Part shown: positions 4,870 to 24,077 of the stretch, one piece after another | How positions within the stretch are numbered: position 1 is the first letter of the stretch | Layout of the letters: every line of letters starts with the position of its first letter | IMG/VR virus record: IMGVR_UViG_3300025147_000409 | Coordinates: 1-24,616 of that record | Strand: one strand, 5' to 3' | DNA: 24,616 bases | From: a virus | Notes under the pieces: model-generated | Told to the model about the DNA's origin: nothing | What the model saw: only the letters and a program-made list of their open reading frames with translations | Database searches by the model: none | Program-made: the position numbers and the translations under genes

Positions 4870-5733
4870 ATGAGACAATTGGTGATTTCAAAGAATTTCA
4901 CATGCAGAGATTCAATATCTCTGGAACTTTATTTCAATGAAATTAAGAGGATTCGCCTTTTAGAAGTTGATGATGAGGCTCTTCTTGCACAAAGGACGAA
5001 AGAAGGTGATCGCAAGGCATTTGAGATCCTGGTTACCGCGAATCTTCGTTTCGTGGTGTCGGTTGCAAAACAATATCAAAACAGGGGTTTAACACTTTCC
5101 GATTTAATTAATGAGGGAAATATTGGCCTTATAAAAGCGGCCGAACGATTTGACGATTCAAGAGGACTTCGGTTTATCTCTTATGCAGTATGGTGGATCA
5201 GGCAATCGATATTGCTGGGTATTTCCGAAAGTGCAAGGATTGTACGTATTCCGTTGAACAGGAGTAATCCAATTACAAAGGTGAGCAACGCGTTTGCCAA
5301 ACTCGAACAGGAATATAATCGTGAACCTATGCCGGAGGAGATTGCCGAATTGCTCCAATTTCAAGTTAAAGTTGTAGAGGATACTTTAAATATTTCAGAT
5401 TTTCCGGTATCATTTGATGCCCCGATATTCGAAGAAAGTGATAGTACAATGGTGGATATTTTTGTCAATAAGGATGCTGTAAGTCCGGATAGGGATCTCG
5501 TAAATGGTTCATTAAAAATTGAAATTGACCGGCTTCTTGCAAAATTACCTGATCTTGATAAAACTATTCTACGCTATTATTTTGGATTGCAAAGCGAGAT
5601 GGCTTTATCCCTCGAAGAAATCGGTATAAAAACAGGATATACCCGCGAAAGGGTTCGTCAGCTTAAAGAAAAAGCTATTAAAAAGTTGAAGGACAAGCAG
5701 AAATGCAGTCTTTTGCGATCATTTTTGGGATAA
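4870..5733 (+). CDS. RpoD-family (sigma-70) RNA polymerase sigma factor, prophage-borne paralogue
   Basis: The 287-residue product has the length and layout of Bacteroidota primary sigma factors. It starts MRQLVISK, has region 1.2 (about 15-45), region 2 (about 50-120; NLRFVVSVAKQYQNRGL, LINEGNIGLIKAAERFD, FISYAVWWIRQSI), region 3 (about 120-195) and a region 4.2 helix-turn-helix near the end (LSLEEIGIKTGYTRERVRQLKEKAIKKL). It should bind core RNA polymerase and direct it to promoters. It differs from the usual housekeeping protein at places I would expect to be invariant, such as GISESARIVRIPLN where ALAEQSRIVRLPLN is typical, so it is read as a paralogue. It stands alone, with its own promoter and a downstream palindrome, inside the prophage. 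It could drive the unusual late promoters in this window or divert host polymerase; neither is shown. Confidence 0.93.
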   Translation: MRQLVISKNFTCRDSISLELYFNEIKRIRLLEVDDEALLAQRTKEGDRKAFEILVTANLRFVVSVAKQYQNRGLTLSDLINEGNIGLIKAAERFDDSRGLRFISYAVWWIRQSILLGISESARIVRIPLNRSNPITKVSNAFAKLEQEYNREPMPEEIAELLQFQVKVVEDTLNISDFPVSFDAPIFEESDSTMVDIFVNKDAVSPDRDLVNGSLKIEIDRLLAKLPDLDKTILRYYFGLQSEMALSLEEIGIKTGYTRERVRQLKEKAIKKLKDKQKCSLLRSFLG

Positions 5734-8209: not shown

Positions 8210-8222
8210 GATTCTTATTTTT

Positions 8223-8280
8223 AATACTTCGTTAAGTATAATGCTTTTGCAATCTTTAGAAGGCTGCAATTAACAATTGC
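8223..8280 (-). promoter_or_regulatory. Two small palindromes upstream of the first SRAP gene
   Basis: ATACTT (8224-8229) and AAGTAT (8234-8239) form an inverted repeat around CGTT. GCAATT (8266-8271) and AATTGC (8275-8280) form another around AAC. Both lie within 75 bases of the start codon at 8209 and are candidate operator half-site pairs. Confidence 0.4.
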
Positions 8281-8593: not shown

Positions 8594-8772
8594 TAATGGG
8601 GGAAAAACAATGGTAATAACCCTTACTTTAATGTACAGACAAAGTGTTTTTTAACCTTGTGATCAACAATATAGTAAGTATATATCTATTGATCAGATAA
8701 ATGGCGTTGAGAGTAATTGATATTTTCTTGTCTTCGCGATTTTTTAAGGTACTTGTTGCCATTAAAAAAAAT

Positions 8773-8809
8773 CTGTCCTTTCCCTCCCCTTTGCATGCTA
8801 TTATCTTAG
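8773..8809 (+). promoter_or_regulatory. Phage promoter-like site 1 (truncated tape-measure copy)
   Basis: CTGTCCTTT (8773-8781), exactly 20 bases, then TATCTTAG (8802-8809), a one-mismatch form of TAnnTTTG. The start codon follows at 8826. The site belongs to the duplicated segment shared with 10617-10653. Confidence 0.65.
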
Positions 8810-8825
8810 CCAGAAACAATCTTAA

Positions 8826-9752
8826 ATGGCAACAAGTTACAACCGAAGAATCAATTTATTCATTAACGGGCAACAGGTTAGCAATGATGTAAGAAGCATC
8901 CGTGCCGAGATGCAACGACTTGTGAATGAACAGGCCCGGATGACACTTGGCAGCCAGGAATACATTGCGCATGCACGCCGGATACGGGACCTTCGGACCA
9001 TTCTGGCAGAGCACAACCAGCAGATTGCTGCGGTTTCAAGATCGTGGAGTCTAAGCAGGATGGGTGATGCTTTCAACCGATACTTTGCACTGGTTACAGC
9101 TGCTGTAGCATCTATTACCGGCCTGATCATGGGTTTTAAGGCTTTGGTCAAAACCTTTAACGATTACGAAGAGCGGGTTGACAACCTTTCGGCGCTCACC
9201 GGTCTGGCAGGTTCGTCACTCGACTGGCTGTCGCAGAAGGCAAAAGACTTAAGTACCGCAACACTCGAAGGTGGAATCCGGGTAACACAGGGCGCCCAGG
9301 AAATTGTGGATGCTTTTACAAAGACAGGATCGGCAAGGCCGGAGTTACTCAAGAACAAGGAGGCACTGGCCCAGGTAACGCAGGAGGCGATCATTTTAAG
9401 CAATGCAGCCAAGACAACGCTTCAACCGGCGATTGAAGCGCTGACCATGGTGATGAACCAGTACAATGTTCCGGCATCAGAGGCACGCCGGATCATTAAT
9501 GCGCTGGGTGCTGGTTCCAAAGAAGGCGCCGGTGAGATACCCTACCTGACCACCGCATTCGAAAAAGCAGGTACCGTTGCCGCTGATGCAGGTCTGAGCA
9601 TTGAGACGATGGTAGCCACCATCGAGACACTGGCTCCCCGGATTTCACAACCTGAGATTGCCGGGCGTTCGCCTTTGTCCCCCCTGCTTAAATTTCAGCC
9701 ATTTTTAATCCGTATTTCTCCAATAACATTGGTGTCCTGTCTGGATAGTTAG
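8826..9752 (+). pseudogene. Truncated N-terminal copy of the tail tape-measure gene
   Basis: The first 282 codons (8826-9671) match the start of the intact tape-measure gene at 10669 with only four amino-acid differences (Q30T, T58S, V94I, Q183E). Homology then stops abruptly after GRS, and the frame runs 26 unrelated codons into the end of a cupin gene on the other strand. The break falls within the region that carries the PhageMin_Tail/TP901-type domain, so it cannot work as a full tape measure. No internal stop or frameshift is present and its promoter-like site is intact, so a 308-residue product could still be made. Differences from the intact gene are mostly synonymous, which argues for import from a related phage instead of a recent local duplication followed by decay. 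Confidence 0.85.
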
Positions 9753-10381
9753 TAAACCCATACTTTTTTGCAACTGGTTCAAATAAATCTTGTGCTTCCT
9801 TTGACTCAGGTGAAATGTTCTCCGTCTTGCACTTATTTACAGTTCTAATAATTTCGTCCAAAAAATTATCAAAGTCCTGATTTAGAAACATATCATTGAA
9901 CTTAGCTGGTTTATCTGTCTGATTCCAATAAGCGTGAGGAATACCGTGAGGTCTTAAATGCCAGTCACCAGCATTAACTTCAAAAACTTCGTCCCCGACA
10001 AGAACATGAACAGTCCCTTCCAAAACATGCATTATTTCGTCCAATTTATCGTGCATGTGAACTGTAACTCCCAGAGTTTTTGGTTGAAGTGTTTCTTCAG
10101 TACAGCTAAATTGTCCATTGGTCTGGTTACTCCTTATTTTGAATCCAAAGTCAATGCCGTCATTCGCTTTAACAGTTGTCCCAGCCTTAGTTAAAACAGG
10201 AGATAAAGGTTTGTCAATATTAGTTTCAGTCACAGGACTTTCTCCTTTACTAGTGCAGCTAAGATTTGTAAAAATAACTCCACTTAGAGCTCCAAATGTT
10301 AACTTTCTAATAATGTCTCTTCTAGTCTGATTTGAGTCCATAGTTTTATCTTTTTGATTAGTAATTACAAAGGTGACGCCC
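9663..10381. repeat. Imperfect inverted repeats bounding the cupin gene
   Basis: GGGCGTTCGCCTTTGT at 9663-9678 reads inward on the + strand. Its near match GGGCGTCACCTTTGT reads inward on the - strand from 10381 to 10367. They bracket the cupin gene closely. The left one overlaps the last nine bases of tape-measure homology, so chance is not excluded. Confidence 0.4.
9688..10341 (-). CDS. Cupin-domain protein with Tat-like/lipoprotein signal
   Basis: I take the ATG at 10341, which gives 217 residues (MDSNQTRRDIIRKLTFGALSG); an ATG 14 codons upstream would put residues before the signal. The twin Arg (7-8), hydrophobic stretch (about 14-27) and Cys29 suggest Tat export and perhaps lipidation, though the residue three before Cys is Asn, not the usual Leu. 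The single cupin domain has HMH (95-97), E102 and G109, then a perfect second motif G125-x5-P-x-G-x2-H136-x3-N140. These residues would bind a metal, as in quercetinase-like or other small cupin oxygenases and isomerases; the substrate is unknown. It lies between the two tape-measure copies, reads against them, and is more AT-rich, so it looks like imported cargo. Confidence 0.85.
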   Translation of the reverse strand: MDSNQTRRDIIRKLTFGALSGVIFTNLSCTSKGESPVTETNIDKPLSPVLTKAGTTVKANDGIDFGFKIRSNQTNGQFSCTEETLQPKTLGVTVHMHDKLDEIMHVLEGTVHVLVGDEVFEVNAGDWHLRPHGIPHAYWNQTDKPAKFNDMFLNQDFDNFLDEIIRTVNKCKTENISPESKEAQDLFEPVAKKYGFTNYPDRTPMLLEKYGLKMAEI

Positions 10382-10616
10382 AACTACTAAATAGCGGAAA
10401 GTTTACAGTACTTTCATGTACTTCAATTGTTTTCAATCTGCTATGTTTTTCATAGTACTTTACTTCATCTCGCTTATCTGCAAATCAATCCTACCTAATT
10501 CCATTTTTTTACTAAATGAATGTCGATACGTATTAATTTCATTAATGTTACATTTTCTTCATAATTATTTTCATCAAGTGCATATGTCATTTTGTTGCTC
10601 TGGGCGTAACTAAAAT
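10382..10616. other. AT-rich spacer between the cupin gene and the intact tape-measure gene
   Basis: No supportable gene. The longest item on the - strand is a frame of about 31 codons at 10495-10590. GGGCGT appears again at 10602-10607, close to where homology with the first tape-measure copy resumes. Confidence 0.5.
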
Positions 10617-10653
10617 CTGTCCTTTCCCCCTCCATACTCCTCCAGTAAATTAG
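10617..10653 (+). promoter_or_regulatory. Phage promoter-like site 2 (intact tape-measure gene)
   Basis: CTGTCCTTT (10617-10625), exactly 20 bases, then TAAATTAG (10646-10653), a one-mismatch TAnnTTTG. The ATG is at 10669. The 20-base spacer differs from that of site 1 in sequence but not in length. Confidence 0.65.
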
Positions 10654-10668
10654 CCAAAAACAACAAAA

Positions 10669-13600
10669 ATGGCAACAAGTTACAACCGTAGGATCAATCT
10701 ATTCATTAACGGGCAACAGGTTAGCAATGATGTAAGGAGCATTCGGGCCGAGATGACAAGACTTGTGAATGAACAGGCACGGATGACACTCGGGAGCCAG
10801 GAGTACATTGCTCACGCACGTCGCATTCGTGATTTACGGAGTATCCTGGCTGAACACAACCAGCAAATTGCTGCGGTTTCAAGATCATGGAGCCTAAGCA
10901 GGATGGGTGATGCTTTCAACAGGTACTTTGCACTGGTTACAGCGGCCATTGCATCAATTACTGGCCTGATCATGGGTTTTAAGGCTTTGGTTAAAACCTT
11001 TAACGATTACGAAGAGCGTGTTGACAACCTTTCGGCTCTTACCGGACTTGCCGGTTCATCACTCGATTGGCTGTCACAGAAGGCAAAAGATTTAAGCACC
11101 GCCACGCTCGAAGGAGGAATCCGGGTAACACAGGGTGCCCAGGAGATTGTGGATGCTTTCACAAAAACAGGATCGGCACGCCCGGAGTTACTCAAGAACA
11201 AGGAGGCACTGGCGGAAGTAACTCAGGAAGCAATTATCCTTAGTAATGCAGCTAAAACAACACTGCAACCTGCGATTGAAGCGCTTACAATGGTTATGAA
11301 CCAGTATAATGTTCCGGCATCAGAGGCACGCCGGATCATTAATGCGCTTGGTGCTGGTTCCAAAGAAGGCGCCGGTGAGATACCTTACCTGACCACCGCA
11401 TTTGAAAAAGCTGGTACCGTTGCCGCTGATGCAGGTCTTAGTATTGAAACCATGGTAGCCACCATCGAGACGCTTGCCCCGCGGATTTCTCAGCCTGAAA
11501 TTGCTGGTCGATCACTTAAAGGGGTATTGCTTGATTTACAACAGGGAGCTGATGATATCAACCCTTCAATTGTCGGTATGACAACTGCCCTGGAAAACCT
11601 GGGTAAGAAAAACCTCAGTATTACAGAGCTTACCAAAATGTTTGGTAAAGAGAATATTACAACAGCGGCAATTCTGATCAACAATGTTGAAGAGCTGAAG
11701 AAATACGAGAAAGCGGTAACCGGAACCAATGTTGCCATCGAACAGGCAGCGATTAATACCGATAACAACAACGCCAAACTGGCGCAGGCAAAAAACAGGA
11801 TCAACATCGTATCGATCGAACTGGGAGAAAAGCTGGCACCTGCGATGTCGCTGGTTACCGGTTATTTTGGAAAGACACTAAAGTTTGTTTCTGTCCTGGT
11901 GGATGTTTTCACCGTTTACGGAAGAACAATTATTACCGCAACCGCGGCTATTGTTGGCTATACGCTCGCTGTGAAACTTCAGACAATGTGGATCAACCGA
12001 TCCAACCAGGCCACACTTAGTCAGATCATTGCCTCTAAAGCACATGCCATCATCACAACGGCAGAAATTGTGGTCACCCAATTATGGGCTGCAGCGATGA
12101 TGGTCCTAACAGGGAATCTCCGGGGAGCGAACCAGGCACTTCGTGTACTGACCAATACCATGAAGCTGAATCCGATCGGTCTTCTCACTACTGCAATAAT
12201 AGCCGGAGCTTCAGCCCTTCAATATTACACACAAAAGAAAAAGGAAGCCGCTGCTGCCGCCAATGCAAATAACCAAATCCTCGAAGAAGAAAAAATGTTG
12301 CTCAATGGTTACTCCTCGGAAATTGTTAAAGAGCGTGATAACCTGAATGCAATGGTTGGTTCCATCATCCGGACCAACGAAAATGAAGAACTTCGGGGGA
12401 CACTGATTAAAAAGCTGAAAGATCAATATCCTGCCTTTTTGGGGATGATCGAAAATGAAAAAATAAGCAATGAACTGTTGGCGGTTAGGTTGGCGGAGGT
12501 AAATACGCATTACAGCGAGAAAATTAGGCTTGCTGCCCTCAAGGCAAAAGGGGAAGCCATCAACAATGCAGCCGTAAAGGCGGAAGAAAGAAAACTGGCG
12601 ATCGAAGAACGCCTGGTGCAGATTGAAAAGGAGAGTTACCGTACCGATGGCAAAAAGAAACAAGCAGAGGTTAACGCCCTTAATGCAGAGTACAATCAGT
12701 TAAACCTCACACTCTCGGATTATAAAAAAAGGCAGGAAGAGATAACCACAGCTTCCACCAGGCTTGACACCGAAATAAAGGAATACGATACTCTTCCTTA
12801 TGTGGAAAAGCAGCTTTCCGGATTATTGTCGGCAAGAAAAACTTATGGCGAGGGCCTCAAAAAAGCAATGGCGTCAGAGAACCAGGAGGAGATCGCTCAT
12901 TACCAGAAACAATTGAATCTTACTGACTCACAAATCAAACTTTTTGAGGATAAGAGAGAAGCACTTTTAGCTTCAGCAAAACAAATTAAACCTGTAACCC
13001 CAATAAACCACGATGATCCCGATGAAAGTGATGGTTCAGGTAGCGAGGGTAAAAAGGTCAAAAAAACCGAAGCTGAAAAAGATGCTGAAAAGCTCCGCAA
13101 ATTCTTCGAACTGGATAATGAAGAGCAAAAGGATGCTATCCGGACAGAACTCAATAAACTGGGGAAAGATGGTGTAGCAGCTTTGGCGAAAGGGATTGAG
13201 GATGAAATGGCTGATGCAAAGGATACGAACAGGTTGCTCACTGAAATGATGACTCCTGAAAAGGAGAAAGTTGACGAGGCAGGTGACTATGCGCTGAAAA
13301 AATATTACGAAACGTTGGAGGGTCAGCAAACCCTGCTCATGGCTCAACATGAAGCCGGTTTGATCAGCGAACAGGAGTTCCAGGATAAAATTGTTGAAAT
13401 TCAGAAAAAGGCAATCGATGAAAAGCTGGAAAAGCAGGTAGAAGGTGCAAAGAAATATCAGGAGGTAACCACAGCTGCGGCCAACTTCGTGAGCGTATTA
13501 ATGGAGGCTGAACTGGCTGATGCCGGTGATAACGAAGAGAAAAAGAAGCAGATCAAAAAGAAATACGCCGATGCAAATATGGTCGTTACCATCGGACAAA

Positions 13601-14181
13601 TCATCTCGGCGACTGCATTGGGAATTATGCAGTCGTTTGCACAACTCGGACCGATTGCCGGAGCTATTGCAGCTGCCTTTATCGGAACAACAGGTGCCGT
13701 ACAAGTGGCTATGTCCGTATCGGAAAGGAACAGAATGAAATCGCTGCACATCGGAGGCTTCACCGGCGAAGGCGGAAAGTATGAACCGGCTGGCGTGGTT
13801 CACAAAGGAGAATATGTGATCCCGCAGGAGGGAGTTAACAACCCCAGACTTCAGCCGCTGATCAGTCTTTTTGAAACAGCCAGACGCAATCATACCCTTG
13901 CACGTCTTGAACTAAGTCCGGTTGTGCAGACAATTCACCAGTCACGCGGATATTCTTCAGGAGGATATACTTCAGGCGCTTCCTCCGGTCCACTACCCTA
14001 CGCTGTTGCACAGGATAGCGGCAAAAGAGATGGAGATCCGGAACTAAAGCAACTTGTGCAGGAATTGAACAAGTTGCTAAAGGCGGGTATTCAGGCGAAT
14101 ATTCCAAGGTATGGAACCAACAGCCTGTCAGACGCTATGGAGGAAATCACCCGGTTTAACGCTAAAATTTTCAAGAAATGA
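10669..14181 (+). CDS. Phage tail tape-measure protein
   Basis: The 1170-residue protein sets tail length and is ejected ahead of DNA during infection. Its layout is typical: an N-terminal helical part (1-110), a TP901/PhageMin_Tail-like domain (about 120-380, with the run SRSWSLSRMGDAFNRYFALV before it), hydrophobic segments (about 420-450, 500-520 and 970-1015, the last rich in Ala/Gly), and long charged coiled-coil stretches (about 525-930, with Lys/Glu-rich blocks near 780-830). Near the C-terminus it carries GGFTGEGGKYEPAGVVHKGE (about 1029-1048), a motif I associate with Bacteroidota tape measures. The stop codon overlaps the next ATG (ATGA at 14178-14181), so the two genes are coupled. 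The tail tube should be about 0.15 nm per residue long, that is roughly 175 nm, by the general rule for this family. Confidence 0.93.
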   Translation: MATSYNRRINLFINGQQVSNDVRSIRAEMTRLVNEQARMTLGSQEYIAHARRIRDLRSILAEHNQQIAAVSRSWSLSRMGDAFNRYFALVTAAIASITGLIMGFKALVKTFNDYEERVDNLSALTGLAGSSLDWLSQKAKDLSTATLEGGIRVTQGAQEIVDAFTKTGSARPELLKNKEALAEVTQEAIILSNAAKTTLQPAIEALTMVMNQYNVPASEARRIINALGAGSKEGAGEIPYLTTAFEKAGTVAADAGLSIETMVATIETLAPRISQPEIAGRSLKGVLLDLQQGADDINPSIVGMTTALENLGKKNLSITELTKMFGKENITTAAILINNVEELKKYEKAVTGTNVAIEQAAINTDNNNAKLAQAKNRINIVSIELGEKLAPAMSLVTGYFGKTLKFVSVLVDVFTVYGRTIITATAAIVGYTLAVKLQTMWINRSNQATLSQIIASKAHAIITTAEIVVTQLWAAAMMVLTGNLRGANQALRVLTNTMKLNPIGLLTTAIIAGASALQYYTQKKKEAAAAANANNQILEEEKMLLNGYSSEIVKERDNLNAMVGSIIRTNENEELRGTLIKKLKDQYPAFLGMIENEKISNELLAVRLAEVNTHYSEKIRLAALKAKGEAINNAAVKAEERKLAIEERLVQIEKESYRTDGKKKQAEVNALNAEYNQLNLTLSDYKKRQEEITTASTRLDTEIKEYDTLPYVEKQLSGLLSARKTYGEGLKKAMASENQEEIAHYQKQLNLTDSQIKLFEDKREALLASAKQIKPVTPINHDDPDESDGSGSEGKKVKKTEAEKDAEKLRKFFELDNEEQKDAIRTELNKLGKDGVAALAKGIEDEMADAKDTNRLLTEMMTPEKEKVDEAGDYALKKYYETLEGQQTLLMAQHEAGLISEQEFQDKIVEIQKKAIDEKLEKQVEGAKKYQEVTTAAANFVSVLMEAELADAGDNEEKKKQIKKKYADANMVVTIGQIISATALGIMQSFAQLGPIAGAIAAAFIGTTGAVQVAMSVSERNRMKSLHIGGFTGEGGKYEPAGVVHKGEYVIPQEGVNNPRLQPLISLFETARRNHTLARLELSPVVQTIHQSRGYSSGGYTSGASSGPLPYAVAQDSGKRDGDPELKQLVQELNKLLKAGIQANIPRYGTNSLSDAMEEITRFNAKIFKK

Positions 14182-15821
14182 AATTAACCATAGGCGGCAA
14201 ACAAATCGCACTACCCCAGGATGCAAAGATCAGTATTCAAAGATCATCACCGGCATTAAACGAAGATACAGGATCATTTTCATACCCGTTTCCGGTACCA
14301 ACATTGCCAAATCAGCAGATCCTGGGATGGCCGGGCAAACTTCAAAGAGCCGGAGAAATCGCAGACCAGTCTTTTGTACTCGAAGATTCGGGACTGCAAG
14401 TCTTCAGCGGTGAAGTGGATTACGATCTGATCACCAGAAATGAGATTGGGGTTATCCTGAAATCCGGTTACACTGTTTTCAGGAGTAAAATGTCAGGTAA
14501 AAAATTAGGAGATATTGATTACGGTTCCGAGAACTGGCTTCCTTTGTACTATACTACCCAGCAGGTTACTGCAAAACTGGCAGAATGGGATGCAGCAAAC
14601 ACAAACGGAAACGGGAAATACTATGTGTCTCCCGTCGCAATCAATGATGCTTTGAACACCACTTCAGTAAATGACTATGTGAATAAAATTGACAAATTAA
14701 CAGGGAAACTGAAGTACGATTCGGGAGGAACACGCCTAAATGTAAACCTTTATATGCTTCAGTTCCGGGCCAGTTTTATGCTTGAAAAGATCTTTGAAAG
14801 TGCCGGTTACACAGTTCTGGCAGACGAATTAAAAACAAGTGAGTTTGGTAAACTGGTCGTTTTCTCCCGGATTATCAATGTCACTTACGGGTCAATCCGG
14901 TTTGGAATTCCAGGGCTTGAACAGACAGACATTCTGCATTACGCGAAGCTCATGCCCGATGTACTGGTCCTGGAATTTGCTGACAACATCGCAAAACTGC
15001 TCTGCCTGATGTACGACATTGACGAGCGCAGGAAAACAGTCAGGATACTTTTCAGAAAGAATATTTTTGCACCCGGCAATGTGGACAATCTTAAAATGGT
15101 TGAGTTGGCCGGATGGCAGCACAGCGAAGAACGAAATGCCGGAGGCTTTAAAATAAGTTTCAAATCCCAGGATTCTGACCTCGATACCAAATCAGATTAC
15201 ATTCCGGATAAAGATGTAGACTGGCTTCCTGTCCCTTCGATTGATGGTGAAGTTGTTCATGTTATTTCGCAGGATGCGGATTACATCACAGTAACTACAG
15301 GTGAAATAAAAGAGTGGAAACAGATTGGACGGTTAAAAGAATACATCTCCGGTAATGGTGCCGAGAGTGTTGAACTGGCCCTGAAAATTCCGGGGGCTGT
15401 GGCGCATCCTGACGGATATCCATTACCAAAACTGGAACTGACTCCCTTAAACAGGTCCTACGCATTCGAAACCATGAAAGAAACAATTGTTTCGATCTAT
15501 CATGGCCGGAAAGAAGTAAACACTGTTGGTATCCCTTACCTTTCCGCTGACTGCTGGGGAATAGCGGCCGGATGGTCAATCGGATTGACTCCGTACCTGG
15601 CACCGGCATACCTCTATGAAAAAGTTTACAAGGAGTTTCTGAACTGGAAAGCATTTAAAGCACGCGGTTTCATTAAGTACATTGAATTAACACTGCCACA
15701 GGTATTAGCGCTTCGATGGGATAAAAAATATAACATCGAGGGAATCGAAGTGATTCTGGATAAAATTAACTTCGAATTGCCACATTACGGAATGGTGAAG
15801 ATAGAAGGGTTTACTGTATAA
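14178..15821 (+). CDS. Tail-associated protein, probable distal-tail or baseplate component
   Basis: The gene encodes 547 residues and starts in a 4-base overlap with the tape-measure gene. The N-terminal part (1-100: MKLTIGGKQIALPQDAKISI, then PALNEDTGSFSYPFPVPTLP) is beta-rich and resembles the start of tail-tip proteins of Bacteroidota phages. The rest is mixed alpha/beta with no signal or membrane segment. In long-tailed phages the gene after the tape measure is usually the distal tail protein, followed by the hub. I recognise no catalytic motif. The function is inferred mainly from its position; the gene itself is beyond doubt from length, composition and coupling. Confidence 0.7.
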   Translation: MKLTIGGKQIALPQDAKISIQRSSPALNEDTGSFSYPFPVPTLPNQQILGWPGKLQRAGEIADQSFVLEDSGLQVFSGEVDYDLITRNEIGVILKSGYTVFRSKMSGKKLGDIDYGSENWLPLYYTTQQVTAKLAEWDAANTNGNGKYYVSPVAINDALNTTSVNDYVNKIDKLTGKLKYDSGGTRLNVNLYMLQFRASFMLEKIFESAGYTVLADELKTSEFGKLVVFSRIINVTYGSIRFGIPGLEQTDILHYAKLMPDVLVLEFADNIAKLLCLMYDIDERRKTVRILFRKNIFAPGNVDNLKMVELAGWQHSEERNAGGFKISFKSQDSDLDTKSDYIPDKDVDWLPVPSIDGEVVHVISQDADYITVTTGEIKEWKQIGRLKEYISGNGAESVELALKIPGAVAHPDGYPLPKLELTPLNRSYAFETMKETIVSIYHGRKEVNTVGIPYLSADCWGIAAGWSIGLTPYLAPAYLYEKVYKEFLNWKAFKARGFIKYIELTLPQVLALRWDKKYNIEGIEVILDKINFELPHYGMVKIEGFTV

Positions 15822-15839
15822 ATAGAAGTGAAAACCGGA

Positions 15840-16148
15840 CTAAATTTTCTTGATTTTCTCTGGATTCTGCCTGCAATCGAATACAGATGAAATCGTAATA
15901 AGGTTTTCCTTTTTCCAGTAAATTATTTTATAGTTGCTTTCAACAAGGTATCGGTAATCTTCGGGATATTCGTTCAGAAGTTCTTCTTTCGGACCAGCAA
16001 ATGGGTTGCTTTCCAATATCGAGACCCTATCGATTATTCGGTTAATCATCTTTCTGGCGAGTGAGAGACTCACCTCAGTTGAATAGTAATCAAATATTTC
16101 CTTGAGTTGTCTTTCAGATAAGTCAGACCATTCAATCCTTATTTCCAT
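15840..16148 (-). CDS. RelE/ParE-family toxin
   Basis: The 102-residue protein has the ParE/RelE plan: start MEIRIEWSDLSERQLKEIFDYY, helix pair through ARKMINRIIDRVSILESNP, then strands FAGPKEELL, YRYLVESNYKIIYWKKENLI and SSVFDCRQNPEKI. ParE-type members poison gyrase and RelE-type members cut mRNA on the ribosome; which applies here cannot be read from sequence. It overlaps the end of the antitoxin gene by 10 bases, the usual order and coupling. The pair lies on the - strand between tail genes, and its stop is only 18 bases from that of the tail gene ahead, so the two transcripts converge. Likely role: stabilising the prophage or acting against other phages. Confidence 0.88.
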   Translation of the reverse strand: MEIRIEWSDLSERQLKEIFDYYSTEVSLSLARKMINRIIDRVSILESNPFAGPKEELLNEYPEDYRYLVESNYKIIYWKKENLITISSVFDCRQNPEKIKKI

Positions 16149-16381
16149 GTTTTGACCTTCTTTTTCAGATCCTGGTGAGAAATAACCCTTCCAGCATCAC
16201 TATCGAGTTTCGCCTGGTCAATCATATCGTGGAATTCGTTCAATGACATGGGTTTTAAGTTCCTCTCATGAGATATTTTCTTTTCTTCCCTGATAAATGA
16301 TTCAAGTTTAATGATGAGACTTTCATCACTAATCCGAAGGAATTCCTCAATTAAACCCAGTTTTCTTGCTTGAATGTTCAT
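16139..16381 (-). CDS. Antitoxin of the RelE/ParE-type pair
   Basis: I take the ATG at 16381 (80 residues, MNIQARKLGLIEEFLRISDE); an ATG 12 codons upstream gives residues unlike the family. The start closely follows a pattern common in Bacteroidota antitoxins (MN.QA.KL.LI..LL.I.DE..I.KL..F), which leads into a charged C-terminal part (about 35-80) that should wrap the toxin. Such antitoxins usually bind their own promoter. Order and overlap with the toxin gene fit a type II module. A -7-like element lies 18 bases upstream. Confidence 0.85.
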   Translation of the reverse strand: MNIQARKLGLIEEFLRISDESLIIKLESFIREEKKISHERNLKPMSLNEFHDMIDQAKLDSDAGRVISHQDLKKKVKTWK

Positions 16382-16398
16382 GACATTAATTCTTTCTA

Positions 16399-16406
16399 CA
16401 AATATA
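16399..16406 (-). promoter_or_regulatory. -7 element of the toxin-antitoxin operon
   Basis: On the - strand TATATTTG matches TAnnTTTG perfectly, 17 bases upstream of the antitoxin ATG. It does not have the TGTCCTTT element 20 bases upstream, so this operon appears to be controlled differently from the phage late genes. Confidence 0.5.
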
Positions 16407-16471
16407 AAGATTTTCAAAGGGAAAAATATTGTTTCCTCAATTTTTACCCTTGATGCAACACATTACAAAAA

Positions 16472-16508
16472 CTGTCCTTTTATAACACTTCCCGCTGCCA
16501 TACTTTCG
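16472..16508 (+). promoter_or_regulatory. Phage promoter-like site 3 (tail fibre)
   Basis: CTGTCCTTT (16472-16480), exactly 20 bases, then TACTTTCG (16501-16508), a one-mismatch TAnnTTTG. The fibre ATG is at 16547. It is divergent from the toxin-antitoxin promoter. Confidence 0.65.
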
Positions 16509-16546
16509 GTGAAAATAGCAGACTTAGGATAACATTTTTCATTTGT

Positions 16547-19500
16547 ATGAGTACGATCATTCAACAACCCGATTCGCTTTCCTTTTCTCAAAATCTCAGG
16601 AAGTTTGTCATCTCTTCCAGCGAAATAGTTTCGCTTAAACTAAACAAGGGAGAAGAGCAGATTCTGGATGAAATTTACCAACCGGGAGCGAACAATCAGA
16701 TTGAAGTTGACCTTCATTCAATCGTCGACAGCGTACTGTCAGTTAGCTTACCATGCACCGGACTAGTCACTGAACAAGTTGCCGGAGTTGCTGACTTTAT
16801 AGCAACGGTTGATGGCACAGCAATAGCCTTCCGGGTGATCAAAGGTGGCGTTTCGGAGCTTCAGGAAATGGTCACATCGTTTACAAATAATCATTTTCTT
16901 TCCTGGCAGGTACAGGATAAAAAGGTGCTTCAACACCAGCCTGAATGGCTGACAGTTTATTCCAATGCTCCCCGGAATCTTAAGGCAAAAACATATTACC
17001 TGGATAATTCGGAGGCCTCAATACTGCTTGCATCACTTGCCACGGGAAAGCTACTGTCAGTAGATGTGAGCTGGGCATCAATCAATGCTTTAGCCGAAAA
17101 GAAAATCCCAATTGCCTGGGATGTGTGGTTCGAAGATGACGATGGTACCAGGTTAAGCTATGTCCAACGTTATTGCCTAAGAAATCCGGATGTGGGTGAG
17201 AAAATATTTATCTGGGCAAATACCCTGGGAGGAATTGACACGATTTCATTGACTGGCAGTGATGAAGATGACAAGAAACTGGAGCATTTAATAGCAGAAA
17301 TGGGTGATGATTCGCTTTTGCAATATCAGACCAGTAAAAACCGGGAAGTCAAACAATCGACCGGATATCTGACAAGCGAAGAAAGCAGGTGGATAGAAGA
17401 TTTCTTCTATTCGCAACGTCGATACCTACTTGATAATGAAGGATCAGTAAGACAAATTGTGGTTGCAGGTTCCAAAATTGTCAGTTCAAATGCTGATGAC
17501 CTGTTTGACTACGAGTTTACTTACCGGTTTGCAACAGAAAGCCAGTTATTAAATCTTGACAGATCATTCGATCCCCTACCGGTATTGGAGGTACCGGCAG
17601 ATTTTTTTTTAACTGAGTTACTGTCCGGGCTTCCGGTAGCTCCTTATTCTGACAGTCTGCTTTTGGCTGTTCAAAGCCCTTTTGCCCAGGCATGGCAGAA
17701 ATTATCAATGGCACAACTTTGGAATTCTGCACTTCCGGATCTTGTTGACGGGTCAACAATTTCTGTAATCAATGGCAAACTTCAGGTTCATGGTGTATCC
17801 GGAGGTATCGGAGCTGCAACCTGGAGTGAACTCCAAAACAAACCTTTCAAAGCCCTGTCAAACTATTTTTCGGTAGACCAGCAAGGTATTTTAACGCTGG
17901 CGAATAGTTATGCCCTGATTCATACTCACCCCTATTTATCGAATGCCGATCCGCAAATATCAAACTGGAATAACGCCTTTGGCTGGGGCGATCATGCAAA
18001 AATAGGATATGCGATAGCTCATACACATCCCTATCGTCCGGATACCTGGATTCCGGGATGGGGAGAAGTAACAGGGAAACCGGTCTGGACTGAAAAAATG
18101 GGCTGGAACGGAACTGCCGTTACAGTTTCCAACGATCTTCACATCACCGGGAAACTAATTGTAGATGATACAATCATGTTTTACGGTTTAGGGACCGGAG
18201 GAGGATCAGGCGCCGGAGCTTCAGCACTCTGGCAATTGAGCGACGTGGCGGATGATGTTGCCAATTCTGTATATGGAGATTTGATCATGTATAATGGTAC
18301 CCACTTTTCGAGGATCAACCAATCATCCCTGGCACCATCGGTACATGGCCATACAATCACTCAGGTATCAGGTTTGCAGGGTATTTTGGATGCAAAAGCT
18401 GATATTCATGCTCATCCGTACCTTTCAGATTCTGATGCACGAATTGCAACATGGACGGCGAAACAAGCAGCGCTCTCCGGAACTGGCTTTGTGAAGTCAA
18501 CAGCCGGGACAATTAGCTATGACGATACAAATTATATTCCTTTAACAGGCGGTGCTTTAGCACAAACATCAACATTGGGCGTTGGAAGAACCTTTAAACT
18601 ACAAGCCCCACTTATCGTAGCAACCAATTACGCAAGAGGTTTCATAGGAGGCAATTTGTCTTTTGACACCGTTTCAGGTTTATGGAAAAATGATGCTGCT
18701 ATTGGAACAGACATAACAGGTATTCTATTTGCTAACGAGGGCGTTATCGAAATATTTGCTAATAAAAGTCAATCATTACAAACCACTTACACACAAGCGC
18801 AATTAGATGCACTTGCAACAATGAAGATAAGTCCATCTGCATTTTTAGTAAATGGAACGGGAACATTTACTGGTAGCACAAGTGCCTTATCGTTTATAAA
18901 AACTGGTGGACTCGCGACTGAATTTTTAAAAGCAAATGGCACAATCGACACCAACGTTTACATCCCAAGATTAAACCCACAATTTGGCGGTGACCTTAAC
19001 ACTATTATTACAAACGGATTTTCTGGATTAGGTTTAGCAACCAATGCCCCGGTTGGTAATAATTATGCTTCGTCAATAATTTCAATTTCGGGTGGCGACA
19101 CTAATCATACAACTCAACTGTATTTGAATGCATTATCAAAAGATATACAGATCAGAGGCCGGGTAAGTAACGTTTTCGATACTGCATGGACGAAAGTATT
19201 TACTGAAAAAAATTTGAATCTTATAACGGTCCCATTTACAGCAGCATCCCTTAATTTAGGTGCACCTCTTTTACGCTCAAAACTTCATATACACGATGGA
19301 GCAATTACGTTATCAGATACCGATGTAGTTCATGGAATGACAGATTATTATTACGAAGGTACTTTTGGAGTTCTTGGAGCTTTATCACAAACCGCTGGAG
19401 GCTTAAGCATATCCGGAGTATCAGATATTGACAATACACCTATGCGAATAACTGGCACAATCGGTTCTGAAGTTCCATATTCAGCAGCAATAATTTTAAA

Positions 19501-22030
19501 TGGCACAAAGAAAAGCCTAGCAACCATTCAGGCATTAGCAGCAACGGAGTCAATATATAAAGTAACCAATAACGGCGCGGTAGTTCATACCGTTCTGGGA
19601 AATGGAAATTTTGGCATCGGGAAAACCCCAACAACAGCGCTGGACGTAAATGGGACAGTTGCAACAATAGATTTTATTTGCGGAGCACATCGGTATAATT
19701 CGGAGATTGGCTTTACAAATATCGCTGGAACAAATTGGCAGAATATAAGAGCTGGTGTGATAAATGGCGCAAGTGCTGTTTTTTCAGGTACAGTTACAGC
19801 ATCAGGAATAATTTCACCTGTAATGAGAAGTAGCTCAACTATAACATTTACAGATATTGCTGGTTCAACTTATCAGACAGTCCAAACTGGAAATCTTAAT
19901 AGTTGGGAATTTACAGCAATTACTGGAGTATTTTCAAGTATAGTAACAGCATTAGGAGGAAATTCAACACAATGGAACACGGCATATAATAAAACAATCC
20001 CACTCACAGTAACAGGACTGACGAGCACCGGGGAAGTCGGCATCGACAGGAACCTAAGAGTTTTAGGAAACCTAATTGTGGACGGAACAATCCAATTCTA
20101 CGGGGCAAGCACTGGCGGAACCGGAGGAGGCGGGGCCACGGCATTTTGGCAGCTTTCAGATGTTGCGGACGACGTCGCCAACGCAGTATACGGCGACCTT
20201 GTCATGTACAATGGTACCCACTTTGCAAGGATCAACCAATCAGCACTCGCTCCAGCCGTGCACACGCACACCATCACACAGGTAACCGGGTTGCAGACAG
20301 CGCTAGACGGGAAGAGCGACTTACACACTCATCCGTACAGAGCAGACAACTGGACACCGGGCTGGGGAGAGGTGACCTCAAAACCAACAACACTATCCGC
20401 TTTCACCAACGACCTCGGCAATTACGGTGGGTTTGCATTGGCACATACGCATCCATATCTTTCAGACAGCGACTCCCGGATTGCAAACTGGAATACCGGG
20501 TACGCCCATAGCCAGTCAGCGCATTATACGGGTGCCGATATTTTTGAATGGGCTAAAGCGGCAACAAAGCCAGCTTACACCAAAGCGGAAATCGGACTAG
20601 GAAGCACAGATAACACAGCGGACGCAGCGAAGTCGGTAGCCTACGCAGCAAACGCAGGGCTACTGCTTGGTAGGTCGGATTACTCACTCACAAGCCACAC
20701 ACACAGCTACGAGCCAGTCAACGATTCAATTTTTAAATTAAGAGACAGCCTGAACGTTACTGATATTAACACGTTTATAAATCGCCAAAGTGGAAATTAT
20801 ACAGTAACACATCCGGGATACTCAAGCCTGTTGACGGTTTTTAGAAACAGCGGAGGAAGCACTTCTGCATTGGAAGTATGGAGCGAATATACTGGAGTTT
20901 TCAGACTAAGGCCAACGGTTGATAGCAACCGATACGGCAGCTGGGCGACACTTTGGCACGATGGAAATTTTACACCATCCAATTACGCGCTCACACACAC
21001 GCACCCTTACCTTTCAGATAGCGACTCCCGGATTGCAAATTGGAACAGCGGGTACACCCATAGCCAGTCAGCGCATTATTCAGGTGCTGATATTTTTGCA
21101 TGGGCTAAAGCGGCAACAAAGCCAGCCTACACCAAGGCGGAGATCGGACTAGGAAGCGCAGATAACACAGCGGACGCAGCGAAGTCGGTAGCCTACGCAA
21201 CATATATTAAATCAGTTTCGCATCCTAATGATTTCTGGTTGTCAAATACGTGGGACGGGACGTACTGGCAGTTAACATCCAATCACGCGTCGCCAGTAAA
21301 CGTCGGGCATGCGGACAACGCTGGTTTATTAAATGGCAGATCAGATTACCTACCACTGACGGGAGGAACGATCTCAGGATCGATAACAGCAACAGAGATT
21401 TATAACAACGGATGGTTTAGAACCAATAACTCAGGCGTGGGATTATTCAACCAGGCAACATCAAACCACTTTTATTCAACCGGAGGGTTTTGGAATATCG
21501 GGTACGCCGGGACGCAGGGAATCTGGCTAAAGAACGGACACGAGGGTGCAACATTAGGAGCTTTGTACGCAGAGTCAAACGGAAACATGGGATTGCTGAA
21601 TTCATATGGAAATTGGGCAGTTCAGGTTTATAATGGAGCAACCGGAGGAGGATATCTGCATGGCAGTTGGGGTTGTAGCGGAAATTTCACGGTTCAAGGC
21701 ACAATCCAATTTTACACCGCATCCGACCGCAGGTTAAAAACTGACTTAGAAGCCATTACCAATCCGATCGCAAAAATAAAATCACTGACCGGGTATTTTT
21801 TCAATTATACTGATCAGGCTCTGACACTCGGATCTTATACATCCAGGCGCGATGTTGGATTGATTGCCCAGGATGTTGAACTGATATTACCCGAGGCAAC
21901 CGGTAAACTTTGGGGTACCGAATTTTTAGGTTACAAAGCGGATAAGTTGATTCCGCTTTTGGTGGAGGCGATGAAACAACAACAGGTTGAAATTGAAAAT
22001 TTAAAACAACAATTAAATGGCCGGTTATAA
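16547..22030 (+). CDS. Large mosaic tail fibre with C-terminal S74 intramolecular chaperone
   Basis: The product is 1827 residues. The N-terminal third (about 1-420) is probably the virion-anchoring part. The middle consists of repeated fibre modules with HTHPYL motifs, Gly-rich linkers and GNFGIGKTPTTALDVNGT-type segments. The last 102 residues form a Peptidase_S74 (endosialidase-type) chaperone domain. The cleavage site is A-SDRRLK, with Ser1726 and Lys1731 as the expected dyad, and a C-terminal coiled coil (LVEAMKQQQVEIENLKQQL) follows. In this family the domain helps the trimer fold and then cuts itself off. Repeats include residues 562 and 1201 onward (WQLSDVADD) and a 206-base pair at 20442 and 20994. 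Codon and base use change between about 18540 and 19980. It probably binds the host surface. The next gene overlaps its end by 14 bases. Confidence 0.9.
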   Translation: MSTIIQQPDSLSFSQNLRKFVISSSEIVSLKLNKGEEQILDEIYQPGANNQIEVDLHSIVDSVLSVSLPCTGLVTEQVAGVADFIATVDGTAIAFRVIKGGVSELQEMVTSFTNNHFLSWQVQDKKVLQHQPEWLTVYSNAPRNLKAKTYYLDNSEASILLASLATGKLLSVDVSWASINALAEKKIPIAWDVWFEDDDGTRLSYVQRYCLRNPDVGEKIFIWANTLGGIDTISLTGSDEDDKKLEHLIAEMGDDSLLQYQTSKNREVKQSTGYLTSEESRWIEDFFYSQRRYLLDNEGSVRQIVVAGSKIVSSNADDLFDYEFTYRFATESQLLNLDRSFDPLPVLEVPADFFLTELLSGLPVAPYSDSLLLAVQSPFAQAWQKLSMAQLWNSALPDLVDGSTISVINGKLQVHGVSGGIGAATWSELQNKPFKALSNYFSVDQQGILTLANSYALIHTHPYLSNADPQISNWNNAFGWGDHAKIGYAIAHTHPYRPDTWIPGWGEVTGKPVWTEKMGWNGTAVTVSNDLHITGKLIVDDTIMFYGLGTGGGSGAGASALWQLSDVADDVANSVYGDLIMYNGTHFSRINQSSLAPSVHGHTITQVSGLQGILDAKADIHAHPYLSDSDARIATWTAKQAALSGTGFVKSTAGTISYDDTNYIPLTGGALAQTSTLGVGRTFKLQAPLIVATNYARGFIGGNLSFDTVSGLWKNDAAIGTDITGILFANEGVIEIFANKSQSLQTTYTQAQLDALATMKISPSAFLVNGTGTFTGSTSALSFIKTGGLATEFLKANGTIDTNVYIPRLNPQFGGDLNTIITNGFSGLGLATNAPVGNNYASSIISISGGDTNHTTQLYLNALSKDIQIRGRVSNVFDTAWTKVFTEKNLNLITVPFTAASLNLGAPLLRSKLHIHDGAITLSDTDVVHGMTDYYYEGTFGVLGALSQTAGGLSISGVSDIDNTPMRITGTIGSEVPYSAAIILNGTKKSLATIQALAATESIYKVTNNGAVVHTVLGNGNFGIGKTPTTALDVNGTVATIDFICGAHRYNSEIGFTNIAGTNWQNIRAGVINGASAVFSGTVTASGIISPVMRSSSTITFTDIAGSTYQTVQTGNLNSWEFTAITGVFSSIVTALGGNSTQWNTAYNKTIPLTVTGLTSTGEVGIDRNLRVLGNLIVDGTIQFYGASTGGTGGGGATAFWQLSDVADDVANAVYGDLVMYNGTHFARINQSALAPAVHTHTITQVTGLQTALDGKSDLHTHPYRADNWTPGWGEVTSKPTTLSAFTNDLGNYGGFALAHTHPYLSDSDSRIANWNTGYAHSQSAHYTGADIFEWAKAATKPAYTKAEIGLGSTDNTADAAKSVAYAANAGLLLGRSDYSLTSHTHSYEPVNDSIFKLRDSLNVTDINTFINRQSGNYTVTHPGYSSLLTVFRNSGGSTSALEVWSEYTGVFRLRPTVDSNRYGSWATLWHDGNFTPSNYALTHTHPYLSDSDSRIANWNSGYTHSQSAHYSGADIFAWAKAATKPAYTKAEIGLGSADNTADAAKSVAYATYIKSVSHPNDFWLSNTWDGTYWQLTSNHASPVNVGHADNAGLLNGRSDYLPLTGGTISGSITATEIYNNGWFRTNNSGVGLFNQATSNHFYSTGGFWNIGYAGTQGIWLKNGHEGATLGALYAESNGNMGLLNSYGNWAVQVYNGATGGGYLHGSWGCSGNFTVQGTIQFYTASDRRLKTDLEAITNPIAKIKSLTGYFFNYTDQALTLGSYTSRRDVGLIAQDVELILPEATGKLWGTEFLGYKADKLIPLLVEAMKQQQVEIENLKQQLNGRL
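20442..20647 (+). repeat. 206-base direct repeat within the fibre gene, unit 1
   Basis: This unit encodes HTHPYLSDSDSRIANWNTGY through to ADAAKSVAYA. It recurs at 20994-21199 with the same length (offset 552 bases) and few substitutions. Confidence 0.9.
20994..21199 (+). repeat. 206-base direct repeat within the fibre gene, unit 2
   Basis: This is the second copy of the unit at 20442. A distinct segment encoding about 116 residues separates the two, so recombination between units could remove or swap that segment. Confidence 0.9.
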
Positions 22031-22991
22031 GAGGAGATATGCGTTTGGTGGACGTACAGGACAGGATTTAAAGAATTCAGCCTCAATTCCAGGCCCCGAT
22101 GGAATTATTGTCGGGGCAGATTATATCGACTGCAGTCTTGTGGACATTCCAACTGAAATCAGGGATGTAATAGGTGAATCGAGCAATGACCTGGGAACAA
22201 TCTATACCAGCAGCAAAGTAAATAAGTGGAGCTGTTTTGGTCCATGGAAGCACGAGATACATGCAGGAATGCTGGTACATATTATTATTTCAAATCCTTA
22301 TGACATGAGTAATTTTTGCGGATATAATCACAATGCGATTGCACCAGGATTTATGTCCGGAAAACCAACTTCATTCACCTATACCCCATCGGACACAACA
22401 AAAATATTGTCAACCGGCCTGCAGGGAGGCGAAATTGATTTTGCATCGATGATGGCCGCAACTCATGTTAAGTGGGTAGTAAGAGACGGGGCGAATGTTG
22501 TGGGATCTACCACTGTTCCCTTAGGTATATATCTTACCTCTTACCCGATTATTCCGCAGGTTACAATTAGTCTTTCAGGCTTTAATGGAACCAAATCACT
22601 TGACTCCAGAATTTATTTATCCGATTCCGCTCAAAATGAGCTGGCAATGTTTCCAAATACAGATGCATGGACGATAACCGCAACAATGATCAGTAACCCG
22701 ACTACAAGTCAGCAAGGCACAGTGGGTATTTTATTTGTTGTGGGCACATCTTCAATTAACTTCAATGAAGCGTTCACATGCAACATCACCAATTTAACAG
22801 CAACCAATTTCCAACCCTACACAAAACGAATCAACATACAAGCGCGGGTTTATAATGCCGCCGGCACTTTAATTCACACCCAACAAATAACAACAGCAGA
22901 CTACGCCAGAAATTACAGCGGAACAATTGGGGTACAAGTTGATTATGGTTATCGCATAGATTTTATAGTATCAAATTATGACTCAATTTAA
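22017..22991 (+). CDS. Unidentified late protein after the tail fibre
   Basis: The 324-residue product starts MAGYKRRYAF in a 14-base overlap with the fibre gene. It has no signal peptide. Residues 60-80 contain SSKVNKWSCFGPWKHEI, a 'KVNKW...P' pattern I have seen in Bacteroidota phage proteins of unknown role near fibre genes. The remainder is rich in Thr, Ser and Asn with alternating hydrophobic residues (about 155-320), which suggests a beta-sandwich fold as in virion surface or fibre-accessory proteins. It could be a receptor-binding accessory or fibre cap; that is inference from position and composition. Confidence 0.6.
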   Translation: MAGYKRRYAFGGRTGQDLKNSASIPGPDGIIVGADYIDCSLVDIPTEIRDVIGESSNDLGTIYTSSKVNKWSCFGPWKHEIHAGMLVHIIISNPYDMSNFCGYNHNAIAPGFMSGKPTSFTYTPSDTTKILSTGLQGGEIDFASMMAATHVKWVVRDGANVVGSTTVPLGIYLTSYPIIPQVTISLSGFNGTKSLDSRIYLSDSAQNELAMFPNTDAWTITATMISNPTTSQQGTVGILFVVGTSSINFNEAFTCNITNLTATNFQPYTKRINIQARVYNAAGTLIHTQQITTADYARNYSGTIGVQVDYGYRIDFIVSNYDSI

Positions 22992-23011
22992 TTTTTAATT
23001 TAATTTTCAAC

Positions 23012-23326
23012 ATGGAACTAATTTCAGAAAAGAAGAGGTTGATTACTACCAGAGTTGGTAAAATCACAGGAGTTGAAGTAAACTTCAACTTCGAAAACAA
23101 CGTAGGCGAAACACCTATGAGTATTAATGCGAATTGCATTATTCCGGGAACTGCTCCAGCTACGCCGGGAGCCGGATCATGCAACATTTCGATAACAAGG
23201 CAATCAAACGGGCAAAAATCGACAACCATTAACGGGAATAAGGGTGTTGTTGAGCTTTATCCAATTATTGAAGAAATTGAAAATGAACTTGAACTAATCG
23301 CTATTGAGGAGGGCAACGCAGAATGA
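23012..23326 (+). CDS. Unidentified small late protein
   Basis: The 104-residue product starts MELISEKKRLITTRVG, is beta-rich in the middle (about 15-75, with PGTAPATPGAG as a flexible turn), and ends in a strongly acidic helix (about 82-104, EEIENELELIAIEEGNAE). No signal or membrane segment. The stop overlaps the next start (ATGA), so the two are co-translated. Function unknown. Confidence 0.6.
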   Translation: MELISEKKRLITTRVGKITGVEVNFNFENNVGETPMSINANCIIPGTAPATPGAGSCNISITRQSNGQKSTTINGNKGVVELYPIIEEIENELELIAIEEGNAE

Positions 23327-23661
23327 AAATTAAAATTACAGCGTCAGAGCGATTGAGTATTGCTCAGTTCTTGCCTTCAGAAGGTAACACCTCTGAACAG
23401 ATGATCGGAAAGAGTATCCTGGATAAAACACGGCTCTCAAAAGAAGAGAAGGTAAAAGTGAAGCCCGACGTGATTTACCAGGGAGAGATTGATCCCGATA
23501 CTGACTTCAGTAGGGAGTTTGACTTCAGCACGGAAGAGTTTAATCTGATGTATTCGGAATACCGAAAAAAAGAAGATGACAAGAAGTTGAACAAAACCAA
23601 TATTTCCATGGCGCTGCGACTTATTGAAGCAAAGGACAACATCAAGGAAAAGAAATCCTGA
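23323..23661 (+). CDS. Unidentified small charged late protein
   Basis: The 112-residue product overlaps the previous gene by 4 bases. It is rich in Lys, Glu and Asp, mostly helical by eye, and has no Cys or membrane segment. The middle (RLSKEEKVKVKPDVIYQGEI) is followed by an acidic segment and a basic C-terminal helix. I do not recognise it. The hairpin downstream ends the transcript that carries it. Confidence 0.6.
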   Translation: MKIKITASERLSIAQFLPSEGNTSEQMIGKSILDKTRLSKEEKVKVKPDVIYQGEIDPDTDFSREFDFSTEEFNLMYSEYRKKEDDKKLNKTNISMALRLIEAKDNIKEKKS

Positions 23662-23667
23662 CTTGTG

Positions 23668-23696
23668 AAACCCGACCCGACCAGGCCGGGTTTTTT
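23668..23696 (+). terminator. Intrinsic terminator
   Basis: AAACCCG (23668-23674) pairs with CGGGTTT (23687-23693), and the T run reaches 23696. An alternative inner pairing ACCCG/CGGGT is possible. The T run leads straight into promoter-like site 4. Confidence 0.75.
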
Positions 23697-23731
23697 GTCC
23701 TTTTGGCCCAAAAGACGTACAAATATTTTTG
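23696..23731 (+). promoter_or_regulatory. Phage promoter-like site 4
   Basis: TGTCCTTT (23696-23703), exactly 20 bases, then TATTTTTG (23724-23731), a perfect TAnnTTTG. The ATG follows at 23745. This is the best match of the four sites. Confidence 0.7.
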
Positions 23732-23744
23732 AAATAAAAACGAA

Positions 23745-24077
23745 ATGGAATCAATTACCGGCCTCCTCACTCCCATTGTTACGGCTCTTGCAGCATGGTT
23801 TTTCGCACGCCGGAAAAACAATGCTGATGCTAAAACCTCAGAACTGGACAATGTTGAAAAAGCCATCTCAATCTGGAGAAAGCTTAGTGAGGACATGGAT
23901 TTACGATTTAAGGCAGAGATAGAAGACTTAAGAAAAGAAAACTGTAATTTGCAGAATCAGATCACACAGGTAATGAAGGAGAATGAGAGTTTAAAATCAC
24001 AAATGAATATTCTTGAGACTGAAAACAAGAAACTCATCAGCCAGTTGAAAATTTTCAATAAAAATAATCCGCAGTAG
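23745..24077 (+). CDS. Membrane-anchored coiled-coil protein, possible lysis protein
   Basis: The 110-residue product has one N-terminal hydrophobic segment (about 5-20, TGLLTPIVTALAAWFF) followed by basic residues (ARRKNN). An almost uninterrupted coiled coil follows (about 30-108, with heptad-like Leu/Ile/Asn spacing: LRKENCNLQNQITQVMKENE). The charge pattern would place the N-terminus outside or across and the coil in the cytoplasm. Similar proteins occur near lysis genes of Bacteroidota phages; a holin-associated or regulatory role is possible. No endolysin is next to it. It has its own promoter-like site. Confidence 0.7.
   Translation: MESITGLLTPIVTALAAWFFARRKNNADAKTSELDNVEKAISIWRKLSEDMDLRFKAEIEDLRKENCNLQNQITQVMKENESLKSQMNILETENKKLISQLKIFNKNNPQ

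Follow-up and report, generated by a model that had tools for sequence, protein, structure and literature searches.

Putative late promoters with a rigid 20-base spacer in tailed phages of Bacteroidota and their candidate phage-encoded activator

In the middle promoters of phage T4, the box of a phage activator (MotA, with AsiA) stands in place of the host -35/-33 element, and the host -10/-7 box is kept. Mor of phage Mu and Ogr of phage P2 are small pre-late phage proteins that activate several late promoters via the host polymerase. Mu C acts in the same way (PMC4461284). In Bacteroidota, promoters of the primary sigma factor (sigma-ABfr) have TTTG near -33, an AT-rich spacer of variable length and TAnnTTTG at -7 (PMC7366714), the -7 box spanning positions -12 to -5 (PMC9723704). 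Here we analyse a 24,616-nucleotide stretch of viral DNA (IMG/VR record IMGVR_UViG_3300025147_000409, positions 1 to 24,616; hereafter the window), in which four sites consist of the octamer TGTCCTTT, 20 further bases (N20) and a second octamer of the form TAnnTTnG. Genome comparisons give good support to the view that a tailed phage of Bacteroidota uses these sites as late promoters and that they represent a widespread and apparently undescribed class. In the open literature, we found no late promoter class or late activator described for Bacteroidota phages, and no text joining TGTCCTTT with phage and promoter; two papers that contain both TGTCCTTT and Bacteroidetes seem, judging from their titles, to deal with other matters. 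Combining this class with a small phage protein resembling gp8 of Bacteroides thetaiotaomicron phage BT-TP2 (hereafter gp8-like), which would activate it together with the host RNA polymerase, we put the probability of the joint interpretation at about 72%.

All four sites match TGTCCTTT-N20-TAnnTTnG exactly (Table 1), confirming the identical layout reported in the initial annotation, in which three of the starts were placed one base early. The same annotation allowed the second octamer at most one mismatch to TAnnTTTG and placed a start codon 13 to 38 bases after each site, and both statements hold: the octamers of sites 1 to 3 are each off by a single base, and the start codons follow the -7 box by 16, 15, 38 and 13 bases at sites 1 to 4, respectively. 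Counting both strands, the four exact matches compare with 0.004 expected per shuffled window; when up to two mismatches to the pattern are tolerated, five sites are found against 1.1 expected. Sites 1 and 2 are duplicates, as had been proposed, with 87.4% identity over 903 bases between 8767-9669 and 10611-11512. The positions of all four sites recur in related phages. Specifically, the site of promoters 1 and 2 is found 5' of the tape-measure genes of relatives, promoter 3 has counterparts in contigs L086 (position 15763), L087 (15811), L089 (11506) and L091 (16008), and promoter 4, located directly 3' of a terminator-like hairpin, has counterparts in G002 (625) and G008 (44824). The -7 box has the TAnnTTnG form of canonical sigma-ABfr promoters at all four window sites, and the -33 position reads TTTC or TTTT, not TTTG.

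Table 1. Putative late promoters of the window, the genes they precede and the sigma factor gene
Feature	Position	Strand	Sequence elements or product	Context
Putative late promoter 1	8774..8809	+	box TGTCCTTT 8774-8781, N20, -7 box TATCTTAG 8802-8809	5' of truncated tape-measure copy
Putative late promoter 2	10618..10653	+	box TGTCCTTT 10618-10625, N20, -7 box TAAATTAG 10646-10653	5' of full tape-measure gene
Putative late promoter 3	16473..16508	+	box TGTCCTTT 16473-16480, N20, -7 box TACTTTCG 16501-16508	5' of 1827-aa putative tail fibre gene
Putative late promoter 4	23696..23731	+	box TGTCCTTT 23696-23703, N20, -7 box TATTTTTG 23724-23731	5' of hol-like gene
Truncated tape-measure copy	8826..9752	+	308-aa open reading frame	3' of promoter 1
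Tail tape-measure protein gene	10669..14181	+	1170 aa	3' of promoter 2
Large tail fibre-like gene	16547..22030	+	1827 aa	3' of promoter 3
Small hol-like/lysis-type gene	23745..24077	+	110 aa; weak PHROG matches hol-like and holin; protein cluster 22	3' of promoter 4
RpoD-like sigma factor gene	4870..5733	+	287 aa; full RpoD-like protein	

A search with the tape-measure protein recovered 24 viral contigs (31-93% identity), nearly all of which carry TGTCCTTT at corresponding places with diverged spacers, and 23 of which contain the strict promoter pattern. Across a non-redundant set of 19 loci with tape-measure relatives (346 kb, window included), TGTCCTTT is the most over-represented octamer (65 copies versus 5.1 expected under a first-order model), with 65 copies on the coding strand versus 4 on the opposite strand. 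TA..TT occurs exactly 20 bases downstream in 52 of the 65 copies, 21 bases downstream in one and at 16-19 or 22-30 bases in none, so that 52 of the 53 sites with TA..TT at 16-30 bases have a spacer of 20 rather than the variable spacer of sigma-ABfr promoters. The sites lie 5' of portal, tape-measure, tail and lysis genes, mostly at a distance of 4-79 bases, the commonest targets being the tape-measure gene, the gene before portal, a tail gene and the hol-like gene. In the profile of 51 non-redundant sites (T28, A29, T32 and T33 being fixed by definition), the -7 box ends in G in 39, spacers are C-rich and an A-rich sequence follows the -7 box. A G after the TTT of TGTCCTTT is present in only five, and the class therefore does not have the TTTG of the host -33 element.

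The same exact spacing recurs in dozens of phages, both related and unrelated to that of the window. The cultured phage BT-TP2 has a site at 25811, 5' of a tape-measure-like gene, and two more, at 10591 and 17977, whose -7 boxes are weaker (TTTCTTTG and CACCTTTG). The layout is also present in IMG/VR records G026, G028, G029, G030 and G031, in Porphyromonas gingivalis siphophages (three sites each), in Cellulophaga phage Ingeline_1 and in Polaribacter phage Leef_1. In Leef_1, all six copies of TGTCCTTT are positioned 40-70 bases 5' of a coding sequence (CDS), where 0.39 are expected, and the -7 sequences have diverged, several of them ending in TTGC. The earlier proposal of a phage late promoter class is strongly supported by orthologous placement 5' of late genes, strand bias, a rigid spacer and the presence of the layout in Bacteroidota phages that are not related to one another. 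We do not rely on a scan of GTDB genomes: among the matches listed, most were chance matches, and an excess of N20 over N19 or N21 was seen in Bacteroidota and in other phyla alike. One further genome, L470 (MZ447863.1, 'Microcystis phage Mea-Yong924-1'), carries TGTCCTTT at 13088, 17597, 19632 and 28689, each copy lying 40-71 bases 5' of a CDS and followed by TTTG at -7, as well as a gp8-like homologue at 8848-9447; its true host may be a bacterium of the Bacteroidota and not the cyanobacterium Microcystis.

Compared with sigma-ABfr promoters, the phage sites share the TAnnTTTG -7 box and place the T run of TGTCCTTT where TTTG would sit, but they differ in the upstream TGTCC, in having no G after TTT in the window, in a spacer fixed at 20 bases and in being confined, as far as tested, to phage late genes. 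Given the -12 to -5 span of the host -7 box, the phage box would cover approximately -40 to -33 and replace the -33 element, and the constant spacing points to a single protein complex touching both parts. Judged by position and conservation, the pattern might instead be an operator or a processing signal of late leaders. Such a role is highly improbable considering that the host -7 box follows the first element at a constant distance and is itself followed by A-rich sequence, and that terminator-like hairpins lie 5' of many sites. Upstream folding energies indicative of such hairpins (below -10 kcal/mol) were obtained for 35 of 127 sites versus 9% in shuffles, suggesting that late operons are ended and then restarted. 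A hairpin within the spacer was considered as part of the mechanism and set aside, as its frequency (8 of 127 sites versus 2.9% in shuffles) is too low. At four sites (L388 (MT835542.1) 7563, G030 25049, G044 23827 and G047 24685), a terminator-like hairpin does occupy the 20-base spacer with its T run serving as the -7 box, and terminator and promoter seem to be overlaid there.

Which protein reads the box? The initial annotation suggested the RpoD-like sigma factor of the window, which would recognize TGTCCTTT together with TAnnTTTG. Its gene does lie in the window, phages with their own late-gene sigma factors are known in general, and phage G025 combines a 60% identical sigma factor with one site. 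By contrast, the sigma factor was not found in any of the 24 tape-measure relatives (among them records of 44-66 kb), yet 23 of these have the strict pattern, and G025 also encodes a gp8-like protein. Conversely, the motif is missing from 39 of 40 other phage contigs that have a relative of the sigma factor and is present as a single copy in the remaining contig, of 232 kb. The sigma gene is a variable insert not common to the relatives, and its own leader, said to repeat the layout, contains TTGCGACTT-N20-TATTTTTG at 4766 with the spacing as described but without TGTCC. The sigma factor as reader of this promoter class is therefore largely refuted, and we regard it as very unlikely. A Sigma70_r4_2 scan for a hidden sigma factor of the extracytoplasmic function (ECF) type produced above-threshold matches in G027 and MT835542 alone, the other matches being weak and largely to the same GerE-type proteins, which are considered below.

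Protein clustering across 20 genomes points to another candidate, the one widely shared family without an evident structural role (cluster 9, 156-192 aa). Members of this gp8-like family (156-193 aa) are encoded just 5' of the head genes, after the early region, and include BT-TP2 gp8, annotated only as 'transcriptional regulator', Leef_1 gp39, Ingeline_1 gp41 and gp42 of Flavobacterium phage laban6-1. The motif was found in 10 of 10 contigs fetched with the gp8-like protein versus 1 of 40 controls (p = 1e-9), the controls being other phage types, so that lineage effects are possible. Among contigs of at least 20 kb drawn from a pattern scan that took no account of the protein, the family occurs in 18 of 26 with N20 sites versus 0 of 17 with only N19 or N21 chance motifs (p = 3e-6); some of the 26 had served to build the family profile, which makes the sampling blind and the profile not wholly independent. 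In P. gingivalis, three phages with a gp8-like protein have three sites each, and two Mu-like phages without it have none. A structure search led to Leef_1 gp39 (15% identity), and the Leef_1 genome then showed its six boxes 5' of CDSs. Just 3' of the gp8-like gene, an extra TGTCCTTT without a recognizable -7 box at +20 is present in both BT-TP2 (L387, position 6028) and Ingeline_1 (L468, position 33305).

The box also varies together with the protein. In the group of G033-G046, the closest to BT-TP2, the box is TGTCCTTC, TGTCTTTT or AGTCCTTT and the spacing is unchanged. Phage laban6-1, whose gp42 is a divergent homologue, has no TGTCCTTT promoters; its genome contains five copies of TGTCACAA (0.9 expected), all on the late strand, 50-69 bases 5' of genes and followed 20 bases on by a -7-like sequence. 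A DNA-binding activator and its site would be expected to show such a pattern, in which the box changes and the geometry stays constant. Co-occurrence and covariation are compatible with late promoters that depend on a phage-encoded protein. Alternatively, a host factor (an alternative sigma factor or a conserved activator) might read the box, with the gp8-like protein a mere lineage marker, and it is true that the -7 box is the host's own and that the upstream box is nearly invariant from phages of marine Flavobacteriia to those of gut Bacteroidales. We consider this unlikely: the P. gingivalis Mu-like phages and Flavobacterium phage FCV-1 do not use the box, laban6-1 has altered it and kept the spacing, and in the promoter map of Flavobacterium psychrophilum the motifs SM1-3 are primary-sigma -7 variants and SM4-6 are sigma-54-, TAnnTTGY- and ECF-like, none being described as TGTCC. 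A different phage protein could also act as the activator, for example the LuxR/GerE-type early regulator, which has a clear helix-turn-helix domain and is encoded by G008, G016, G022, G025, G031 and MT835542, in divergent form by G024 and, by annotation, by Leef_1 (gp22) and laban6-1 (gp54). At E <= 0.1, this protein was not found in BT-TP2, G011, G017, G026, G028, G029 or G030, all of which have the promoters, and its gene is a neighbour of the repressor gene where the early region begins, not where it ends. With several promoter-bearing phages apparently lacking it, the LuxR/GerE-type protein is a less likely reader than the gp8-like protein, and a different phage protein as the activator is, overall, quite improbable.

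Predicted structure is compatible with DNA binding by the gp8-like protein. Its AlphaFold2 model (pLDDT 87.6, pTM 0.81) ends in three C-terminal helices and a basic tail, and, of two residues in the last helix, R144 is the same in all of 25 members compared and K140 in almost all. Structure searches returned weak similarity to helix-turn-helix and homeodomain-like folds, the best matches in the Protein Data Bank (PDB) being MntR, the sigma factor of a Thermus initiation complex, DosR and homeodomains (Z of 4.0 or less). The gp8-like proteins have no match above cut-offs in Pfam, PHROGs or NCBIfam, and six query proteins gave no match to the Pfam Mor family at E <= 1. No Mor/C fold was among the matches listed in the fold searches, which does not exclude it, and MotA was likewise missing from the listed matches, which showed only weak helix-turn-helix-like similarity.

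Several observations weigh against the gp8-like protein as activator. No family member was detected in 8 of the 26 N20 contigs (six with a single site and two with two sites), and the co-occurrence is partly confounded with phage lineage. Foldseek and VIA searches against the PDB found no solved DNA-binding protein that the model matches significantly, and the subfamilies are weakly linked by sequence (hhalign E 3e-4 to 4e-3, low probability). Finally, the activator gene was not seen in the window, an incomplete contig from which most of the early and head region is missing. A window relative, G008 (tape measure 64% identical), has a gp8-like gene, and the activator gene of the window phage would be on the part missing from the 24.6-kb contig.

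Taking these points together, we think it likely that gp8-like activators form a phylum-wide system which, at a rigidly placed octamer, takes over from the -33 contact made by the primary sigma factor of Bacteroidota, the box having co-evolved with the activator (TGTCCTTT, TGTCCTTC and TGTCACAA) and the 20-base spacing having been kept in marine flavophages and in phages of gut and oral Bacteroidales alike. Under this model, early transcription would yield the gp8-like activator, whose C-terminal three-helix domain and basic tail would bind the octamer, beside the point at which sigma region 4 would meet -33. The protein would hold the host RNA polymerase with its primary sigma factor and substitute for the missing -33 contact at promoters in which the -7 box is often weak, and every late operon would be switched on, including those restarted after inserted genes. 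Binding, activation and timing are here all proposed from comparative genomics and modelling.

This model resembles the T4 MotA/AsiA system in that a phage box replaces the -35/-33 element and the host -10/-7 box is kept, but it differs in the box itself, in the host polymerase (of another phylum), in its use for late genes and in a protein without sequence match to a named family. With Mu C, Mor and P2 Ogr it would share the activation of several late promoters by a small pre-late phage protein via the host polymerase. The sites of Mu C/Mor and P2 Ogr are longer and dyad-symmetric, whereas the octamer here is short, asymmetric and placed directly at -33. Phages of Bacteroidota are frequent in bacteria of the gut and mouth. 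If the model is correct, the motif would flag late operons directly in metagenomic phages, a protein family without match in Pfam, PHROGs or NCBIfam would gain a function, a phylum with few genetic tools would gain a phage-controlled expression switch, and one could test by what means a small protein stands in for the contact that an unusual primary sigma factor makes at -33.

Regarding the genes of the window, the 1827-aa product is probably a tail fibre, judging from its repeats and a peptidase_S74-like C-terminal end. Promoters 1 and 3 both come after minus-strand inserts and would restart late transcription past the inserted genes. The first insert, located between late operons, consists of two adjoining SRAP (HMCES-like) genes (6566-7396 and 7472-8269); the second, located between tail genes just 5' of promoter 3, corresponds to an apparent ParE-type toxin and antitoxin (15840-16148 and 16139-16417). 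A minus-strand cupin-like gene (9688-10383) separates the two tape-measure copies. The duplication is partial, covering the promoter and the beginning of the tape-measure gene, and could stem from the insertion of a gene accompanied by duplication, or from an assembly join.

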